A stretch of DNA of 7,566 nucleotides, taken from positions 1-7,566 of the forward strand of contig QMWA01000083.1 of the NCBI GenBank assembly GCA_003661385.1, given 5' to 3'. The notes under the pieces are model-generated. The model did no database searches. It worked only from the letters and a program-made list of their open reading frames with translations, and was not told where the DNA came from. Shown piece by piece: positions 1 to 7,566 of the stretch. Source of the stretch: Thermoproteota archaeon. Its GTDB lineage: Archaea > Korarchaeota > Korarchaeia > B14-G2. Within the stretch, counting starts at the first letter, position 1. Each line of letters begins with the position of its first letter. Position numbers and translations under genes: made by a program.

Positions 1-927
1 AGCCACGTACTCTGCCAGCTGGCCTCCGAGCTTAGCTAGCTCCTTCTTGAGCCTGCTCCTCTCCCTGGCTGCAGCCTCAGCTGCAGCTGGGAGCTTATCT
101 AAGCTCACCCCCATGGCCTTAGCTGCCTGCTCAGCTAGCTTAAGCTGCTGTGCCATAGCCCTGTAAGCTGGCTCCCCGGCTGCGAACTCGAGCCTCTCAA
201 CACCCTTCTGGAGCCTCATCCTCCCTAGAATCCTTATGGGAGCTACCTCAGATGTCAGCTTGACATGCGTGCCGCTACACAGGGAGACATCCCAGCCCTC
301 CACCTCGACAACCCTCACTTCACCTGCTGGTGTGACCTCTGTGACCCCGAGCTTGCTCCCATACCTCCTCTCAGCCTCCTCTCTGCTCATAGTCCACCAC
401 CTGACCCTCCTGCCCTCCATGGCTACCGTGTTAGCTAGCTGCTCTATCCTCTCAAGCTGCTCCCTGGCTATGGGCCTCCCGTAGCTGAGGTCTATCCTAG
501 TCTTCTCCAGCGCTATCTGGAATCCCATGTAGACAAGCCTCTCTACCCCGAGGACACGCCTGGCAGCTGAGAAGACTATGTGAGATGCTGTGTGGCTCTT
601 CATCAGCTGGTACCTCCTACCCCAGTCTATCCTACCTGACACAAGCTCCCCAACCTTGGGGAGCTGCCTCCCCTCACACACATGGACTACAGCACTGCCA
701 GCAGGCTGCGTGTCCACTACCCTCAGGGTGCCGCCACTCCACTCTAATACCCCTGTGTCACCAGGCTGCCCACCTCCCTCAGGGTGGAAGCACGTCTCCT
801 CCAGCACAACGTACAGCTTACCGCCCTCAGCATGAGAGGCTACAACCCTGCTCTTAAACTCCTTGAGGTAGGGGTCCTCGTAGTAGAGTAGCCTAGTCTT
901 AGCGCTCCCAACCCAGCTTAAGCTCAT
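1..927 (-). CDS. alaX: AlaX-type alanyl-tRNA editing protein (C-terminus cut by window edge)
   Basis: Freestanding homologue of the AlaRS editing domain. The family deacylates mischarged tRNA(Ala), mainly Ser-tRNA(Ala), in the cytoplasm. The ATG is at 927 and 309 codons are visible with no stop before position 1. After a short lead the protein shows the Gly-rich AlaX/AlaRS motif HPEGGGQPGD (residues 48-57). It then has the two zinc-site motifs, HTASH (H112, H116) and CSGTH (C217, H221). From about residue 255 an Ala/Glu/Lys-rich, probably coiled-coil helix begins. That helix and the length beyond 300 residues suggest the long form (AlaX-L), whose C-terminal domain would lie outside the window. 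No aminoacylation domain precedes it, so it is not AlaRS itself. It lies 31 nt downstream of a small gene on the same strand but has its own TATA box at the leaderless distance. Family assignment is firm; the long-form subtype is inferred. Confidence 0.93.
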   Translation of the reverse strand, partial: MSLSWVGSAKTRLLYYEDPYLKEFKSRVVASHAEGGKLYVVLEETCFHPEGGGQPGDTGVLEWSGGTLRVVDTQPAGSAVVHVCEGRQLPKVGELVSGRIDWGRRYQLMKSHTASHIVFSAARRVLGVERLVYMGFQIALEKTRIDLSYGRPIAREQLERIEQLANTVAMEGRRVRWWTMSREEAERRYGSKLGVTEVTPAGEVRVVEVEGWDVSLCSGTHVKLTSEVAPIRILGRMRLQKGVERLEFAAGEPAYRAMAQQLKLAEQAAKAMGVSLDKLPAAAEAAARERSRLKKELAKLGGQLAEYVA

Positions 928-949
928 GCAGCACCCGCGTAGCAGCAAG

Positions 950-958: not shown

Positions 959-1216
959 CTACTCCAGCTTCTCGACCACGTCCTTCTCCCTGAGAACCTC
1001 CTTCTTCCAGGCCTCTATGAGCGGAGCCCAAGCTGCCAGGAGCCTTAGCCTGTAGATTGGTGGCGCAAACGGGATCCCTAGCATGTCTCCTAGGGTGGCT
1101 GTCATCATCGCACACTCCTCCCTGAACTTCGCCTTCTCCAGGGTCTTCACAGGCTCAAGGACAAGGAAGCCGAACAAGAACTCCCGGATCTTCCTCTTAA
1201 GCCCTCTCAACTCCAC
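959..1216 (-). CDS. Small helical protein, paralogue of the protein at 3633-3944
   Basis: An 85-residue protein of unknown function, starting at GTG 1216. An in-frame TGA at 1225-1223 rules out a longer start, and a TATA box about 26 nt upstream makes this GTG a good leaderless start. The N-terminus is basic (several Lys/Arg in the first 11 residues) and is followed by a short hydrophobic stretch. The last 45 residues (41-85) align without gaps to the last 45 residues of the small protein encoded at 3633-3944, with 23 identities. The shared pattern is TLGDMLG, a P-x2-PP-x-Y turn, L-x-LL, P-x-I, WK and RE-x-DV. This similarity between two places in the window is the strongest evidence that both genes are real. 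I do not recognise a named family. It is upstream of alaX on the same strand, but nothing links it to tRNA editing except position. Confidence 0.82.
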   Translation of the reverse strand: MELRGLKRKIREFLFGFLVLEPVKTLEKAKFREECAMMTATLGDMLGIPFAPPIYRLRLLAAWAPLIEAWKKEVLREKDVVEKLE

Positions 1217-1287: not shown

Positions 1288-1785
1288 ATGTTGGAGTCAA
1301 CCATATGGGCTAGGAACATCCTGCTAGGAGACTGCGTGTTCGCCAAGTTTAAGCTGCCTGAGGGCTGGGCTATAAGGCCTACGCTCTACCCTCCTGATGT
1401 CGAGGAGTACACTGAGCACAGGGGGTTGAAGTGGGCTGCTAGCGGGTTCATAATCCTAGACCTCTACGCTGGCCGAGATAAGCCCCTCAGGCTTGAGATC
1501 AAGGCCAAGAGGTCTAGGAGGTGGCTGACCAGGGAGCGTGCTGCGAGAAGCCTCGGCGTGAGCGCAGATAGCGTCAGAGAAGCTGTGGCAGGAGGGCATG
1601 AGGCATACTACGCTGTCAAGGAGAGCAGGAGGCTCCTGGGAGGCAGGAGGATGGAGGTCAAGCTGGTGCTCTACTGCCATGAAACCCAGCGCACCATAAG
1701 GTTCACCGTCGAGGGGGCTCCAGAGCACGTCAGCAGCTGTCTAGCTGAGGTACTGGAGCTGCTCACCTCAGTCACATGCCACTGA
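1288..1785 (+). CDS. Conserved-looking protein of unknown function (165 aa)
   Basis: The ATG at 1288 is preceded by GAGG at 1279-1282, a suitable ribosome binding site. Codon use (AGG for Arg, ATA for Ile, GAG for Glu) matches the neighbours, which supports a real gene. I do not recognise the family. The N-terminal third contains short beta-like stretches and a Pro-rich segment (PTLYPPD, residues 31-37). The middle is very basic (KAKRSRRW, residues 72-79) and runs into a helical stretch with the pattern LTRERAARSLGVS (80-92). The C-terminal part alternates beta-like segments (MEVKLVLYC, 122-130, and TIRFTVEG, 136-143). Four Cys (16, 130, 151, 164) are scattered without a metal-binding spacing. 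No membrane segment or signal peptide is visible. The basic middle could contact nucleic acid, but that is speculation. It is divergent from the small protein/alaX pair and precedes the separately promoted cstA. Confidence 0.72.
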   Translation: MLESTIWARNILLGDCVFAKFKLPEGWAIRPTLYPPDVEEYTEHRGLKWAASGFIILDLYAGRDKPLRLEIKAKRSRRWLTRERAARSLGVSADSVREAVAGGHEAYYAVKESRRLLGGRRMEVKLVLYCHETQRTIRFTVEGAPEHVSSCLAEVLELLTSVTCH

Positions 1786-1898: not shown

Positions 1899-3566
1899 AT
1901 GTACCCAATATGGTTCGTGATCCTAGGTGTTATAGTATATGGGCTAGCCTACTTCACCTACGCCAAGTGGTACGACAAGCACGTGTGGGAGCCTGACCCC
2001 AAGAAGCCTACACCAGCCCACACGTACATGGACGGCATAACCTTCTTCCCAGTCAGCAAGTACGTGCTATACGGCTTCCAGTTCAAGGGGATTGCAGGCC
2101 TAGGGCCGATACTAGGCCCCTTCATAGCGCTGATGTACGGCTGGGTTCCAGCCCTCATATGGATACTCCTAGGCAACTTCTTCATAGGGTGGATACACGA
2201 CTACAGCTCCCTGATGCTCTCAGTCAGAAACGAAGGCAAGACGATGGGGCCACTCAGCTACGAGCTGATAAGCCCACGAGCCAGGAGAGCTCTCTTAGGC
2301 TTCCTCGTGTTCTACCTAATCCTGATCCTCGCAGTCTTCATGGTCCTGTGCTCGCTGTTCTTCAAGGTCTACCCTGCATCAGTCCTAGCAATGATCTTCC
2401 TAGTGCTAGGTGGAGTAGTCAGCGGAGCCCTCCTCTACAAGGCTAAGATGGGCGTCGGGACATCCACACTGGTAGGCATCATCATAATCATAATAGGGAT
2501 AATACTGGGGGTCCAGGTCCCAATAAAGCACCCAAGCCTAGCTCTCTGGATGGTCTTCACATCAATCATACTCTTCATAGCAGCTGTCACCCCACTGATG
2601 TGGGTTACCCAGCCAGTGGTCTACGTAGCAAGCTTCCCAGCCATATTCGGTATACTCCTGCTCTTCATAGGCGCGCTAGCATCCCCAGCTACAGGCGTGA
2701 GGATCGAGCAGCCAGGCTACCTCGGCTTCATGGCTAAAGCTGGGCCGATGTGGCCTCTCCTGACAGTATCGATAGCATGCGGAGCTATATCAGGGTGGCA
2801 CAGCCTGATAAGCACATCAGGCTCAGCCTCACAGCTAGATGTCGAGACCGATGCCCTGCCAGTAGGAGGAGGAGCTATGCTGACTGAAGGCCTCCTAGCC
2901 CTGATGTCGCTGGCAGCGTACATGGTCCTGACTCCAGGTGAGATCAAGGAGCTAGGCGGAGTGAAGTGGACGTGCCTCGTCCATGGAGCAAAGAAGCTTA
3001 TAGTGCCAATAACAGGAGGAGAACCCTACATAGAGGCATTCTACGGGCTGTGGCTCGAGCTATACGCGCTGACGATAGCAATGATAGTCATAAGGTTCCT
3101 CTGGCTGACGTTCGGCGAGATCACAGCTGGAGTCCCGCCGCTTAGGGTCATAATAGGGAACAAGTGGGGTGGCTCCATAATAGGGCTCCTGGTAGCTGGA
3201 GCATTCGCATACACTGGAGCATGGATCAACCTATGGCTGCTGTTCGGAGGCTCAAACCAGCTGCTAGCTGGCCTAGCCCTCATACTAGTCACAATATACC
3301 TAGCTAAGGTGAAGAAGCCGACAATATACACGCTAGCTCCAGCAGCATTCATGATAGTGACATGTGAGGCAGCTCTGCTATGGGAGGCCAAGGACTTCTT
3401 CCTGAAGATGGGGCAGCTTGTCAAGCCTCCGATGAAAGCTGGGACACTAGCTGCTAAAGCCCTGAACTTCATATTCGGAGTCGTCGGAATAGTGCTCTTC
3501 ATACTAGGGCTGCTAGTGGCCATAGACGCGATCAAAGCTTACAGGAAAGCCAAAGCAGGCGGTTAG
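1899..3566 (+). CDS. cstA: CstA-family carbon starvation protein (peptide/pyruvate transporter)
   Basis: A 555-residue polytopic membrane protein of the CstA/BtsT family. Bacterial members import peptides or pyruvate, in BtsT as a proton symport. The family signature is plain: QFKGIAGLGPILGP (residues 61-74), GW-PALIWILLG and the WIHD-YSS region ending in SVRNEG (81-113), then SGWHSLISTSGSASQLD (298-314) and FGGSNQLLAGLAL (449-461). More than a dozen hydrophobic helices run from residue 3 to about 543, including an Ile-rich one around 192-204. It is well short of the roughly 700 residues of the E. coli proteins, and the shortening appears to be in loops and at the C-terminus. The start is ATG 1899 with AGGTG seven bases upstream. 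It has its own promoter and a T-run after the stop, so it is probably monocistronic although the ATPase operon follows in the same direction. The substrate here is not known; pyruvate or peptides are guesses from the family. Confidence 0.93.
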   Translation: MYPIWFVILGVIVYGLAYFTYAKWYDKHVWEPDPKKPTPAHTYMDGITFFPVSKYVLYGFQFKGIAGLGPILGPFIALMYGWVPALIWILLGNFFIGWIHDYSSLMLSVRNEGKTMGPLSYELISPRARRALLGFLVFYLILILAVFMVLCSLFFKVYPASVLAMIFLVLGGVVSGALLYKAKMGVGTSTLVGIIIIIIGIILGVQVPIKHPSLALWMVFTSIILFIAAVTPLMWVTQPVVYVASFPAIFGILLLFIGALASPATGVRIEQPGYLGFMAKAGPMWPLLTVSIACGAISGWHSLISTSGSASQLDVETDALPVGGGAMLTEGLLALMSLAAYMVLTPGEIKELGGVKWTCLVHGAKKLIVPITGGEPYIEAFYGLWLELYALTIAMIVIRFLWLTFGEITAGVPPLRVIIGNKWGGSIIGLLVAGAFAYTGAWINLWLLFGGSNQLLAGLALILVTIYLAKVKKPTIYTLAPAAFMIVTCEAALLWEAKDFFLKMGQLVKPPMKAGTLAAKALNFIFGVVGIVLFILGLLVAIDAIKAYRKAKAGG

Positions 3567-3632: not shown

Positions 3633-3944
3633 ATGCCAAAGTGGTTTAAGAGGGAGAGGAAGGAGGAGAAGAGAGAGGAGGAGGGAGGCGTCAAGAAGGA
3701 GGTTAAGGAGGCTGTCAAGGGAGTGTTCTATGGCATGGCTTCGCATGGGATGGTAAGGTACATGCTGAAGACAAGGATGTACCTCGAGCACCTTTTCATG
3801 CTGATAACACTAGGGGACATGCTTGGGTTCCCGATTCTGCCACCATACTACTCGCTGAAGCTGCTGCCATATGCCATACCCCATATTAAGACCTGGAAGA
3901 GGAGCTTGTTCCGTGAGCGTGATGTAACCGACCTACTGTACTGA
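3633..3944 (+). CDS. Small hydrophobic-core protein heading the ATPase operon, paralogue of 959-1216
   Basis: A 103-residue protein of unknown function. I chose ATG 3633 because AGGTGG (3623-3628) precedes it and the upstream in-frame GTG at 3609 is too close to the TATA box. The N-terminal third is a dense Lys/Glu/Arg helix (residues 3-29). It is followed by a segment rich in Met, His and aromatic residues and then a hydrophobic core (about 51-85). The final 45 residues (59-103) align without gaps to residues 41-85 of the protein at 959-1216, with 23 identical, including TLGDMLG, PP-x-Y, P-x-I, WK and RE-x-DV. The charged N-terminus is absent from the shorter paralogue. The stop lies 11 nt before the ATPase ATG, so the two are co-transcribed. 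Operon position and hydrophobic character suggest a binding partner or client of the ArsA/Get3-type ATPases, which is inference. Confidence 0.88.
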   Translation: MPKWFKRERKEEKREEEGGVKKEVKEAVKGVFYGMASHGMVRYMLKTRMYLEHLFMLITLGDMLGFPILPPYYSLKLLPYAIPHIKTWKRSLFRERDVTDLLY

Positions 3945-3955: not shown

Positions 3956-4960
3956 ATGCCCAAGTCTCTTAAGGAGTTCTTTGATGCAAGCCCTGAGCTC
4001 AGGATAGTAGTGTACGCTGGTAAGGGTGGGCTTGGGAAGACCACTGCGAGCGCAGCCACAGCATACTGGTTCTCCAAGAGGGGGAAGAAGCCCCTCTGCT
4101 TCAGCACAGATCCCCAGGCTTCGCTCAGCGACATATTCGAGAGGGACATATTCGGCAAGGGGGTCATAGAGGTCGCTCCAAGCCTGTACGTGGTTGAGAT
4201 AGACGCTGACAAGAGGATAGCTGAGTTCCAGGAGGAGGTCAGGGCCAAGATCAGGGAGCTCTACAAGATCGAGAAGATCCCAGATGAGATAGACGAGTAC
4301 ATCAGGACAGCTGCAGCTGAGCCAGCTATGCACGAGTCAGCTACATACGATGCCATGGCTGAGCTCCTAGCTAAAGGCGAGTACGACATCTACATATTCG
4401 ACATGCCCCCGTTCGGGCATGGAGTCAGGATGATATCAATGGCTCAGATACTTGACGCCTGGATAGACAAAATGGAGGAGACCAGGAGGAAGGCAGCTGA
4501 GTACGAGGAGGCTGTAGCCAGGCTGAAGGGGCTCTCAGCCAAGACAGAGGACGAGGTCTTGGTCGAGCTCAGGGAGATAAGGAGGAAGCTGGACTTCTTC
4601 AGGGAGAGTTTAACGAACCCGAAGACCTGTGCGTTCTTCATGGTGATCATACCTGAGAAGATGGCTATACTAGACACTGAGCGAGCCCTAGAGATGTTTG
4701 ACAAGCTCGGCATAAAGCTCAGCGGCATAATCGTGAACCAGATCTACCCGCCCTCGCTCCTGGAGAACCCGAACATAAGCACCTTCCTCAAGAACAGAAT
4801 TGAGATGCAGCAGAAGTACATGAAGGTCATCTGGGAGAAGTTCGAGGAGTACATCAGAGCACTAGTCCCCATGTTCGACAGGGAGCCTAAGGGCCTCGAC
4901 ATGATAGCTAAGGTGGCTGAGCACATGTTTGAGAGGCCTTGGGAGGTTGATGTGATATGA
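3956..4960 (+). CDS. arsA: ArsA/Get3-family P-loop ATPase, first of a pair, switch residues largely kept
   Basis: A 334-residue cytoplasmic ATPase of the ArsA/Get3 (SIMIBI, deviant Walker A) family. Relatives power arsenite pumps (ArsA) or deliver tail-anchored proteins to membranes (Get3). Visible motifs are GKGGLGKTT (22-30) with the signature Lys23 and P-loop Lys28, and switch I STDPQASLSD (50-59) with the Asp (D52) that acts as catalytic base in Get3. Switch II is DMPPFGHGVR (149-158), keeping Gly-His, and the adenine-loop motif is VNQIYP (260-265). A long charged helical insert (about 170-220) corresponds to the client or metal-binding helical subdomain. The CxxC zinc motif of dimeric Get3 is absent, and the arsenite Cys triad is not evident (only C48 and C225), so an arsenite role is doubtful. 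Its stop overlaps the next ATPase start. Start chosen at ATG 3956 because of AGGTGG five bases upstream. Confidence 0.93.
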   Translation: MPKSLKEFFDASPELRIVVYAGKGGLGKTTASAATAYWFSKRGKKPLCFSTDPQASLSDIFERDIFGKGVIEVAPSLYVVEIDADKRIAEFQEEVRAKIRELYKIEKIPDEIDEYIRTAAAEPAMHESATYDAMAELLAKGEYDIYIFDMPPFGHGVRMISMAQILDAWIDKMEETRRKAAEYEEAVARLKGLSAKTEDEVLVELREIRRKLDFFRESLTNPKTCAFFMVIIPEKMAILDTERALEMFDKLGIKLSGIIVNQIYPPSLLENPNISTFLKNRIEMQQKYMKVIWEKFEEYIRALVPMFDREPKGLDMIAKVAEHMFERPWEVDVI

Positions 4961-5982
4961 GTGAGCCTGTTCCGCTAGCTGAGTACCTGGCTTCGAAGCC
5001 AAGCCTGAAGTTCTTCTTCACAGGAGGTAAGGGAGGCGTAGGGAAGACAGTGTGTGCAGCTGGGCTGGCGTACCACTTCGCTGAGAGCGGTGAGAAGACC
5101 CTTCTAGCCTCGCTGAACCCAGTGCACTCTCTGTCAAGCCTGTTTGAGCAGGAGCTCTGGGGTGGGGTGATAAAGCCGGTAGAGGGCGTCAGGAACCTCT
5201 ATGCCATAGAAGTTGACATAAAGGACAGGGTTGAGGCCTACAAGAGGCAGCTAGCTGAGAAGCTCAGGTGGTTCCTGAAGTGGGCTGACATCCCAGTTAA
5301 GGCTGAGCCATTCATCGAGATAGCAGCCACGAACCCAGCCTTCGAGGAGTCAGCTATGTTCGACAACATGATCGACATCATGCTGAAGGAGGGAGAGAAC
5401 TACGACAAGATAGTCTTCGACTGCGCTGCTGTGGCTAACGCAGTGAGGCTCCTAGGCTTGAGCAAGATATACGACCTCTGGCTTGACAGGATGATAAAGA
5501 GCAGGGAGGAAGCCCTCTCGCTCAGGGTCAGGCTCTCCTTCAGGAAGGATAAGGCCATGGAGGAGATCAGGAAAGACCCCATGATGAGAGACCTCATGGA
5601 CATGAGAGAGAGGATCAAGGAGGCCAAGAAGATATTCAACAACCCTGATAGGACAGCGTTCTTCTTCGTCACGCTCCCACTTGCACTCCCAATATCGGTG
5701 GTCAAGAGGTTCATTGACATGGTCAAGGGCTTTGACATACCAGTTGGAGGAGTGTTCGTGAACGGAGTGCTCCCCAAGGCCCTTGCCATGAGAGAGGGAG
5801 CAGAAGACTACCTGAAGAACAAGTACATGGAGCAGGAAGGCTACATGGGGATGATAAGGAGAGACCTATGGCCTCTAGTGAGAGCTATGATACCACTATA
5901 CGAGAGTGAGATAGTTGGAGTCAAGATGATCGCTAAGCTAGCCGACGACATGATGAAGTGGAAGCCTGGAGTAGAGATCTGA
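4957..5982 (+). CDS. ArsA/Get3-family ATPase, second of a pair, degenerate switch regions
   Basis: A 341-residue paralogue of the preceding ATPase, with start ATG 4957 overlapping the upstream TGA as ATGA and GGAGGT nine bases before it, so translation is probably coupled. The P-loop is canonical, GKGGVGKT (24-31), and nucleotide binding is expected. Switch I reads SLNPVHSLSS (52-61): the catalytic-base Asp of the family is Asn54 (codon AAC at 5116-5118). Switch II reads DCAAVANAVR (155-164): the usual Gly-His is Ala160-Asn161. The adenine-loop motif is VNGVLP (268-273) instead of VNQ. A helical insert (about 175-228) is rich in Met and charged residues, as in client-binding subdomains. No CxxC is present. 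I infer a slow or inactive ATPase that pairs with the first subunit, comparable in principle to the two unequal halves of bacterial ArsA. Heterodimer formation is not shown by sequence. Confidence 0.92.
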   Translation: MSEPVPLAEYLASKPSLKFFFTGGKGGVGKTVCAAGLAYHFAESGEKTLLASLNPVHSLSSLFEQELWGGVIKPVEGVRNLYAIEVDIKDRVEAYKRQLAEKLRWFLKWADIPVKAEPFIEIAATNPAFEESAMFDNMIDIMLKEGENYDKIVFDCAAVANAVRLLGLSKIYDLWLDRMIKSREEALSLRVRLSFRKDKAMEEIRKDPMMRDLMDMRERIKEAKKIFNNPDRTAFFFVTLPLALPISVVKRFIDMVKGFDIPVGGVFVNGVLPKALAMREGAEDYLKNKYMEQEGYMGMIRRDLWPLVRAMIPLYESEIVGVKMIAKLADDMMKWKPGVEI

Positions 5983-6614
5983 TGACACCGCTGCAGCTCA
6001 TTATAGCTGTGTCAGTAGGCTTCACGCTCTACTACTTTCTCGGTAAGCTATGGAACAGGAGGCTGCAGAGGGAGCTCTGGAGGCGCATCAGGCCTGAGCT
6101 AGCTAGGAGGTATGGGAGCTTCAGCTTCATGCCACTAGGCTCAAGTGGCTTCAGGATCCTGGCAGCGAAGCCCAAGGGAGGGGGGCCGCGTAAGCTCGAG
6201 CTAGACCTCCTGCTGCTAGACAGAGAGAACCTTGTGCACTACCCTGTTCAGCTTGCTCTAGGCGAAGTCGACAAGGTCGTTGTCAAGGCGAACTTGAAGA
6301 GCAGGCCTAAGGCTAGGCTGGAGGCTGCCTCCAGGAGCTACAGGCCTGCCTCCAGGCTTGAGGCTAGAGCACCAAGCGAAGGGCTGCTTGATGCTGGAGA
6401 GGGTGTGGTTGCGTGGTCTGATAGGAGAGTTGAGGGCTTGAGGGTGCTGCTCTCAAGTGGAGCCGCCAGAGCCCTCTCAGAGGGAGCGCTGCTGAGGATT
6501 TCAGTTTCACCTGAGGAGCCTAACCTGATAGTCCAAGCTAAGGCATGTGAGAGCGGGGTTAAGGCTGCGCTGGAGGTTGCTGAGCGCATCTACCTAGAGG
6601 ACTGGAGCAAGTAG
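5982..6614 (+). CDS. Single-pass membrane-anchored protein of unknown function, last gene of the ATPase operon
   Basis: A 210-residue protein that I do not recognise. ATG 5982 overlaps the previous stop (TGATG), the normal sign of translational coupling. An upstream in-frame ATG at 5958 lies inside the ATPase gene without a useful ribosome site and was not chosen. Residues 4-21 form one hydrophobic segment directly followed by a strongly basic stretch (KLWNRRLQRELWRRIR, 22-37). By the positive-inside rule this puts the remaining roughly 170 residues in the cytoplasm. The soluble part alternates beta-like hydrophobic stretches (KLELDLLLLD, 71-80; HYPVQLALG, 87-95) with Arg/Ala-rich segments and ends in a helix. 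Operon membership suggests a membrane dock for the ATPase pair, which is inference. Its 3' end overlaps the convergent nikR by 21 nt (6594-6614). Confidence 0.85.
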   Translation: MTPLQLIIAVSVGFTLYYFLGKLWNRRLQRELWRRIRPELARRYGSFSFMPLGSSGFRILAAKPKGGGPRKLELDLLLLDRENLVHYPVQLALGEVDKVVVKANLKSRPKARLEAASRSYRPASRLEARAPSEGLLDAGEGVVAWSDRRVEGLRVLLSSGAARALSEGALLRISVSPEEPNLIVQAKACESGVKAALEVAERIYLEDWSK

Positions 6615-6998
6615 GAGGTCGGCCCACTTCACTCCCTTTATGCTCTCTATCCTCCTGTACAGCTCCTTTATAGCCTCACTCCCACCCCTGCATGTTATGA
6701 CCTCTAGGCAGTCTTCTCCGAGGTGTATGTGGCTTGAGTTGATTACTATACTGCTGTAGTCGTGCTGGGCTTCAGTTATCTCCTCCTCACACCCCCTCTT
6801 CCCGTGGCTATACAGCACGATGATCACCCCAATGTTCCCTTTAGCTGATGCCACTCTCCCCTCCTTCATTATCAGAAGCCTCATGGCTGCCCTTATCGCC
6901 TCAGACCTGTTAGCGAACCCTACCTCTCTTGATACTCTAGTGAACTCCTCAAGGAGGTTCCTCGGCACACTTACTCCGAACCTCACTATCTCCTCCAA
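6594..6998 (-). CDS. nikR: NikR-family nickel-responsive ribbon-helix-helix regulator
   Basis: A 134-residue homologue of NikR, a tetrameric nickel sensor that binds DNA when loaded with Ni(II). Residues 4-45 carry the ribbon-helix-helix fold: strand VRFGVSVP (5-12) and the typical FANRSEAIRAAMR (28-40). The C-terminal ACT-like domain shows the expected ligands: H79 (AQHDYSS), H90 and H92 in HIH, and C97 before LEVITCRG, followed by KGVKWADLL. The H92-to-C97 distance is five residues, whereas E. coli NikR has six (H89 to C95), so the metal loop is one residue shorter. The start is TTG 6998 with AGGTGG (7003-7008) four bases upstream; GTG 6986 is an alternative, but the TTG start gives an N-terminus like that of archaeal NikR proteins. 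No nickel transporter or nickel enzyme gene is visible in the window. Divergent from kptA. Confidence 0.92.
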   Translation of the reverse strand: MEEIVRFGVSVPRNLLEEFTRVSREVGFANRSEAIRAAMRLLIMKEGRVASAKGNIGVIIVLYSHGKRGCEEEITEAQHDYSSIVINSSHIHLGEDCLEVITCRGGSEAIKELYRRIESIKGVKWADLLLAPVL

Positions 6999-7041: not shown

Positions 7042-7057
7042 CCATATGGGTGCGCAT

Positions 7058-7566
7058 GTGCCACCTAGCGTGTATAGGTGTGGGGTCTGTGGGAGGCTTG
7101 TCGAAAGCAGGGTGCACTGTGGGTCTAGCTGCGTGCTCCTGCTTGATGGAGGGAGGAGGCTTAGGCTCAGCAAGCTGATGAGCCTGCTGCTGAGGCATAG
7201 GCCTGAGCTAGGTGGGCTCAAGGTTGACGCGGAGGGCTTTGTAGAGGTACGTGAGCTGGTGGAGGCAGCTAGGAGGCTGGGACTTAGGTGGGTTAGGGAG
7301 GAGCATGTCAAGGCTGTAGCTGAGCTGGACTCTAAGGGGAGGTTTGAGCTGAGGGGCAGCAGGGTGAGAGCTAGATATGGGCACTCGATTCCAGTTGAGG
7401 TACGCTACGAGAAGGGGAGTGTGCCTGATGTCTTGTACCATGGGACTACATCTGAGGCTGCAGCTAGGATACTGAGAGAGGGACTGAAGCCTATGGGGAG
7501 GAGGATGGTGCACCTGTCGAGCAGCATCGAGGACGCCATCGCTGTCGGTAGGAGGAAGTGTAGGAC
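7058..7566 (+). CDS. kptA: RNA 2'-phosphotransferase Tpt1/KptA with N-terminal Cys motif (3' end cut by window)
   Basis: KptA/Tpt1 enzymes use NAD+ to remove an internal RNA 2'-phosphate, giving ADP-ribose 1'',2''-cyclic phosphate. The archaeal role is unsettled because archaeal tRNA splicing leaves no such phosphate. Numbering from GTG 7058, the protein shows LSKLMSLLLRHRPE (37-50) with the family RH pair, then RARYGHS (104-110) with the active-site His109, LYHGT (126-130) and VHLS (151-154). It leaves the window after about 169 codons; perhaps 50 residues are missing. Before the catalytic core is a CxxC...CxxxC element (C8, C11, C21, C25), probably a zinc knuckle. GTG 7058 is preferred because the TATA core at 7029-7036 lies about 26 nt upstream and GGGTG sits five bases before it. 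ATG 7046, in the same frame, would add four residues but lies upstream of the predicted message start. Confidence 0.9.
   Translation, partial: MPPSVYRCGVCGRLVESRVHCGSSCVLLLDGGRRLRLSKLMSLLLRHRPELGGLKVDAEGFVEVRELVEAARRLGLRWVREEHVKAVAELDSKGRFELRGSRVRARYGHSIPVEVRYEKGSVPDVLYHGTTSEAAARILREGLKPMGRRMVHLSSSIEDAIAVGRRKCR

Follow-up and report, generated by a model that had tools for sequence, protein, structure and literature searches.

The window, that is, the whole stretch of DNA analysed here, spans one 7.6-kb contig from an archaeal genome of 1.74 Mb in 206 contigs (G000), and it carries two overlapping genes, A and B, that encode ATPases of the ArsA/Get3 type within a cluster built around a transporter of the CstA family. 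The main features are the following:

959..1216, minus strand: second CstX-type small protein, 85 aa, a paralogue of 3633-3944 encoded on the divergent strand
1899..3566, plus strand: carbon starvation transporter of the CstA family (PF02554, E = 9e-99)
3633..3944, plus strand: CstX, a CC-star-type small protein of 103 aa directly upstream of A, assigned by profile comparison; helix-break-helix hairpin predicted with low-to-moderate confidence
3956..4960, plus strand: gene A, ArsA/Get3-type ATPase of 334 aa in a single domain, with D52, G154-H155, P-loop GKGGLGKT and switch I STDPQAS; catalytically complete to judge from these residues
4109..4111, plus strand: D52 codon of gene A, GAT (Get3 D57 position)
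4957..5982, plus strand: gene B, ArsA/Get3-type paralogue of A, 341 aa, with N54, Ala-Asn at 160-161 replacing Gly-His, and an intact P-loop
5116..5118, plus strand: N54 codon of gene B, AAC (Get3 D57 position)
5434..5439, plus strand: A160-N161 codons of gene B, GCT AAC, replacing Gly-His
5982..6614, plus strand: CstY-type protein, 210 aa, with an N-terminal membrane segment and a soluble domain (CstY in the sense of PMC2963123)

Gene A extends from an ATG at 3956-3958 to a stop codon at 4958-4960, and the ATG of gene B (4957-4959) lies within that stop (ATGA, a 4-nt overlap), with the stop codon of B at 5980-5982. The two proteins are 31% identical and both belong to the ArsA/Get3/TRC40 superfamily, as they combine an ArsA_ATPase domain (PF02374, E = 2.9e-69 for A and 1.2e-54 for B) with the deviant Walker A motif, the P-loop GKGGxGKT being kept in both; they also pass the 135-bit cut-off of TIGR00345 (GET3/arsA/TRC40), with 224.6 and 190.2 bits for A and B, respectively. 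The catalytic switch-I Asp expected of an active ATPase is present in A, and Asn stands in its place in B. The original prediction had described two adjacent, translationally coupled ORFs, the first with D52 and Gly-His and the second with a full P-loop but Asn54 and Ala160-Asn161, and it is right in each of these particulars. A third ArsA-family protein is encoded elsewhere in the window genome (L003, G000 contig 35); it keeps the Asp (TSDPTPS) and has Gly-Gly for Gly-His, and no CstA was seen in its 2.6-kb locus.

The gene order in the window is second CstX (minus strand), ORF 1288-1785, CstA, CstX, A, B and CstY, and the start of the CstY-type ORF overlaps the stop codon of B (TGATG). This context was missed by the original prediction, and since the pair is part of a cluster around the CstA transporter, the designation of an ArsA/Get3 pair does not by itself tell its function. 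No ars partner (ArsB, Acr3 or ArsR) was found in the window, the neighbours being CstA, CstX, CstY, NikR, AlaX-type and Tpt1. ORF 1288-1785 (plus strand, 165 aa) has no Pfam family; conserved copies of it adjoin the cluster in relatives (L039-L049, L061 and L078). Directly downstream of the cluster there is a gene for a NikR-type nickel-responsive regulator (6594-6998, minus strand; NikR_C, E = 3.1e-22), and the cluster is flanked by genes for an AlaX-type alanyl-tRNA editing protein (1-948, minus strand) and a Tpt1/KptA RNA 2'-phosphotransferase (7046-7566, plus strand).

The asymmetry between the two ATPases is conserved. Residues were counted on one alignment of a first set of 40 A and 41 B sequences, in which all A sequences have both Asp and Gly-His (40/40 each) and all B sequences have Asn (41/41), with Ala-Asn in 36, Ala-His in three and two unreadable at the switch II position, Gly-His never occurring; the signature Lys and the P-loop Lys are invariant in A (40/40) as well as in B (41/41). 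A second set comprised 57 further loci, 49 of them new, from the classes or phyla of three pair-bearing genomes, and here too Asn was found in every B sequence (57/57; Ala-Asn in 54, Ala-His in three), while Asp and Gly-His were found in all readable A sequences (54/54 and 55/55, respectively). Gene A bears an invariant switch-I change of its own, STDPAHS to S-x-DPQAS, which removes a His that is retained in B. Among 63 single or unlinked ArsA/Get3 proteins used for comparison, the Asp is retained in all (63/63). This residue pattern is far beyond chance.

The asymmetry is intact in the 13 relatives that carry the same pair, and a scan of named genomes identified B orthologues with about 50% identity in archaea (Bathyarchaeota, Thermoproteales and Methanoperedens) as well as in bacteria (Chloroflexota, Thermodesulfobacteriota and other Deltaproteobacteria, Acidobacteriota, Gemmatimonadota, Symbiobacterium and an Acetobacteraceae bacterium). 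Among the genomes sampled, 42 of 100 from one Chloroflexota class carry the pair, as do 11 of 99 from the phylum of L067 and 16 of 151 from that of L060. The original prediction had named B orthologues with Asp and Gly-His as one observation that would count against it; none was found among about 90 distinct B sequences from archaea and many bacterial phyla, in all of which Asn occupies the Asp position, with Ala-Asn as the usual and Ala-His as the rare switch II pair. With such conservation, neither an isolated mutation nor a sequencing error can account for the residues of gene B, and its decay is likewise ruled out by the invariant P-loop and trans-acting lysine. Since N54 and the ATP-binding residues are both invariant in these orthologues, B is under selection rather than decaying.

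To examine the ancestry of the pair, a tree of 133 ATPase sequences was built by a quick method with SH-aLRT support. All 110 CstA-linked sequences form one clade (support 99) apart from classical Get3, within which the pair A and pair B clades are supported at 99 and 100, respectively, and A plus B at 97. Archaeal and bacterial members split alike within the A clade and within the B clade. A single duplication, from which A and B stem on the evidence of the tree, explains this pattern if B then lost its Asp, at a time when the archaeal and bacterial branches had not yet separated (or been exchanged). In seven pair genomes that were searched whole there is one A and one B in each; the two genes are adjacent and the 4-nt overlap recurs at many loci. 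The lack of CxxC, which in Get3 binds zinc at the dimer interface, had been noted in the original prediction and is true of both proteins but common to all CstA-linked sequences of the tree (CxxC in 0/110, versus 14/23 of the others), and because single-gene CstA-linked systems lack it as well, it is not special to the A-B pair.

The grouping of CstA, CstX, A and B is kept in the relatives, and the order of CstA, CstY and the second CstX varies. CstA lies within the fetched flank in most of the 27 named pair-type loci (leaving aside the duplicate L080), the exceptions being three loci (L062, L071 and L072) in which CstX is present and CstA is absent from the fetched flank, and the short contigs L063 and L084. 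The CstA-CstX-ArsA set also occurs at loci with a single ATPase gene in haloarchaea, Bacillaceae, Gammaproteobacteria and Gemmatimonadota, Haloferax or Bacillus methanolicus relatives being among the carriers, and no CstA-cluster partners were found at classical Get3 loci. Two CstX genes are present at 16 of 26 named pair loci as against none of 38 single-ATPase loci (Fisher test, with shared ancestry ignored). The pair has the attributes of the CstA-linked ArsA clade (clusters 14-18 of Castillo and Saier), namely an operon with CstA and CstX, a single domain of about 330 aa, and monophyly.

Of the 29 genomes sampled from the window's phylum, 14 contain CstA, and it is these same 14 that carry the intact pair. 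Genome G023, which has a B fragment, and genome G011 are both without CstA; in the latter there is real decay, a B remnant with two in-frame stops (contig 18, 18883-19080), which suggests loss of the whole module. In a CstA tree (bootstrap and SH-aLRT), all 31 pair-type CstA fall into one clade (100/100), and the CstA proteins of pair-bearing Gemmatimonadota (L066), Bacillota (L064) and Pseudomonadota (L083) lie inside it, away from the single-type CstA of their phylum-mates. Given that the CstA clade matches pair type and not phylum, and that CstA and the pair have the same phyletic distribution, the CstA-pair module has been inherited, and probably transferred, as a unit.

As to the small proteins, the window CstX (3633-3944) matches the CC-star profile NF041419 with E = 1.6e-6 and 28 bits, under the 80-bit cut-off, and ends in LLY without a terminal CC; yet it reaches 99.1% in an hhalign comparison with the RCC-ending CC-star set, and for this reason we regard it as a divergent CC-star relative. 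It has no Pfam match, and the hhalign probability with YbdD/YjiX (PF04328) is 7.8%, over the last 8 residues only; homology of CstX to YbdD/YjiX is not supported, the alignment being restricted to the terminal RCC. Among CstX proteins of single-ATPase loci (L086-L138), those of Bacillaceae, Proteobacteria and Gemmatimonadota end in RCC and those of haloarchaea in a His/Phe tail, and pair-type CstX proteins are without the RCC ending. The RCC end that CstX and the otherwise dissimilar E. coli YbdD/YjiX have in common is possibly a convergent motif, judging from the alignments. The hydrophobic stretch of CstX is short, with a peak 19-residue Kyte-Doolittle value mostly of 1.3-1.6 in pair systems, and the monomer model of the window CstX is of low confidence (pLDDT 72.3, pTM 0.40) and was left out of the fold search. 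CstY-type proteins have a faint likeness, under the cut-off, to CCDC47, a eukaryotic membrane-protein biogenesis factor (best E = 2.7e-4 for L042 and 0.0067 for L056); profile comparison with PDB chains gave this likeness no support. In Chloroflexota, too, pair loci have CstY-like genes close by (L065 and L070).

In the Get3/ArsA fold both ATP sites lie at the dimer interface, and each takes its signature lysine from the partner subunit. The switch-I D57 of yeast Get3 coordinates and primes the attacking water, and this water-priming role is general in the family (PMC10248533). The monomer model of B (pLDDT 86.8, pTM 0.85) finds archaeal and eukaryotic Get3 as its best matches in the fold search (3zq6, Z = 28.9) and aligns to the ATP-bound structure of Get3(D57N) (9ns5, Z = 28.3); by sequence and model together, the nearest solved structures are archaeal Get3 proteins and Chlamydomonas ArsA1. 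Since D57 primes the water and Get3(D57N) was solved with ATP bound, B can be considered a natural relative of this trapped mutant.

From these data we infer, as a reading somewhat better than evenly likely, that A and B form a heterodimeric ArsA/Get3-type ATPase with one hydrolysing and one ATP-holding site, which drives or gates CstA through CstX. The residue pattern is what such a dimer predicts: the loss in B is confined to the residue that its own site needs for catalysis, and the ATP loop and the Lys that would serve A are kept. The original prediction, which had suggested an obligate heterodimer with one hydrolysing subunit, is partly supported. At the A-site, the P-loop and D52 of A together with the signature Lys25 of B would hydrolyse ATP, and at the B-site, where the water-activating Asp is absent and which would thus be catalytically dead, ATP would be bound but held, so that in the working dimer one site would cycle while the other stayed occupied. 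Docking onto CstA would be through the small CstX proteins, of which one lies next to A/B and a paralogue nearby, and the docked dimer would drive or gate solute movement through the transporter. A more detailed version, in which this widespread two-gene one-site ATPase converts or gates CstA, a secondary transporter, with B holding ATP in a structural or timing role, A cycling, and each subunit on its own CstX, is tentative and we regard it as possible but doubtful. In E. coli, pyruvate uptake by CstA needs its small neighbour YbdD (PMC5847655), and btsT is followed by yjiX and then by the GTPase gene yjiA; taken with CstA-YbdD, this points to a recurring arrangement, a transporter of the CstA family with a small linker to an NTPase. 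The YbdD result transfers weakly to CstX, because only the terminal G-x-RCC is in common and even this is missing from pair-type CstX, and CstA transport does not in itself call for an ATPase, given that transport by some E. coli members of the CstA family proceeds without ArsA (ybdD is the sole companion gene of cstA).

Driving, gating and assembling of CstA cannot be separated from sequence alone, and a rather unlikely alternative is that the A-B heterodimer is a Get3-like assembly or membrane-insertion factor for CstA, CstX or CstY, with transport neither powered nor gated. Consistent with this, the closest folds are archaeal and eukaryotic Get3, CstX has a short hydrophobic stretch and CstY a membrane segment, and asymmetric sites would fit a one-round delivery cycle; however, the Get3 CxxC is absent from every CstA-linked sequence, one transporter family is the partner in every phylum instead of a varied client set, and the helical insert that serves for tail-anchor binding in Get3 is polar in the pair (median GRAVY -0.79 in A and -0.82 in B), although unlinked relatives (-0.61) are only slightly less so. 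We favour driving or gating over assembly, given that the transporter is the constant partner and that the insert is polar, if only slightly more so than in unlinked relatives. More remote still is the notion that the pair handles arsenite or tail-anchored proteins in general and that its CstA neighbourhood is incidental: the family names and profile matches (ArsA, Get3) would fit, but the CstA neighbours across phyla, the matched trees and the identical phyletic distribution make it scarcely credible, and ars genes are reported to be absent from CstA-type operons (PMC2963123).

The subunit arrangement has also to be considered. Related CstA-linked systems use a single, presumably homodimeric, ArsA, and homodimers were suggested in PMC2963123, so that A might form an active A2 ATPase and B a separate ATP-locked B2 scaffold or competitor with no heterodimer at all; the strict one-to-one adjacency with translational overlap, the reciprocal switch-I changes (A keeps the Asp and has Ala for His, B has Asn and keeps the His) and the retention of the trans-acting lysine in 41/41 B sequences render this improbable. 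That N54 leaves hydrolysis intact in this branch, making B an ordinary active ATPase with altered switches, would be in keeping with the fact that the evidence for a dead Asn comes from distant relatives such as yeast Get3, and with a switch II that differs too and might accompany rearranged chemistry, but we take it to be very improbable in view of the family-wide role of the Asp in water priming (PMC10248533) and of its retention throughout the A sequences and the 63 others used for comparison.

Several elements of this system were described in 2010 by Castillo and Saier (PMC2963123), who reported ArsA homologues in operons with CstA, the small CstX and archaeal CstY, argued for co-function from matched trees, and proposed that CstA is energised by ArsA with CstX as a linker. 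They also mention adjacent ArsA pairs of cluster 15 in Pyrobaculum arsenaticum and Symbiobacterium thermophilum (31% and 25% identity), a duplicated CstX in Pyrobaculum, the absence of the ArsA metalloid cysteines C113, C172 and C422 from single-domain homologues and, in a passing remark, that the switch-I D of single-domain proteins "can be substituted only by N"; their clusters 14-18 have the same operon partners and single-domain size (about 330 aa) as A and B. Neither the constant placement of Asn in the second gene of the pair, nor the loss of Gly-His, nor a heterodimer is reported in the passages of that paper covered here. The literature searched, with most subscription journals outside it, yielded no report of the fixed A/B asymmetry, which provisionally appears to be new in its universality.

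Work on Get3/ArsA ATPases has dealt with symmetric homodimers or with fused pairs, and symmetry makes it difficult to examine how the two sites of a dimer are coordinated. In the natural pair, where one subunit is permanently the counterpart of the D57N laboratory mutant across archaea and bacteria, an asymmetric dimer would be available ready-made, with sites that can be probed singly. CstA-family proteins of model bacteria carry pyruvate and peptides, and the pair raises as a real question whether some of these transporters are driven by ATP; it also sharpens the 2010 proposal that ArsA energises CstA, as one ATP site must suffice.

Compared with known systems, the pair resembles archaeal Get3 (3zq6, 3ug7) in fold, P-loop and the switches of A, with 30% identity over most of the B model, but archaeal Get3 is the product of one gene, a homodimer with a CxxC zinc pair, whereas A and B are encoded by two genes and have no CxxC, and B is without the Asp. 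The substitution engineered in yeast Get3 D57N (9ns5) is natural in B, the former being a laboratory homodimer mutant and the latter the fixed state of one subunit. Two Get3-like proteins also share one entry (6bs3) in the case of Mycobacterium tuberculosis Get3-like A and B (BagA/BagB, Rv3679-Rv3680), which is a precedent for two-gene Get3-like complexes; A and B belong to another subfamily, as membership in BagA/BagB was ruled out by scores of 25-44 bits against NCBIfam equivalog cut-offs of 400 and 521. E. coli ArsA (1f48, 1ihu) has the same fold, a transporter partner (ArsB) and two nucleotide sites, but consists of fused halves, binds arsenite and belongs to an ars operon, whereas A and B are two separate overlapping ORFs. 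The E. coli BtsT-YjiX-YjiA and CstA-YbdD systems likewise have a CstA-family transporter followed by a small RCC-ending protein, and BtsT also has a P-loop NTPase; YjiA, however, is a GTPase in which no similarity to A or B could be detected, and YjiX is unlike CstX beyond the RCC end. Finally, the expected residue pattern of A-B, with one working site, is like that of ABC transporters with one degenerate site, and if our proposal is true, the pair would be their Get3/ArsA counterpart.
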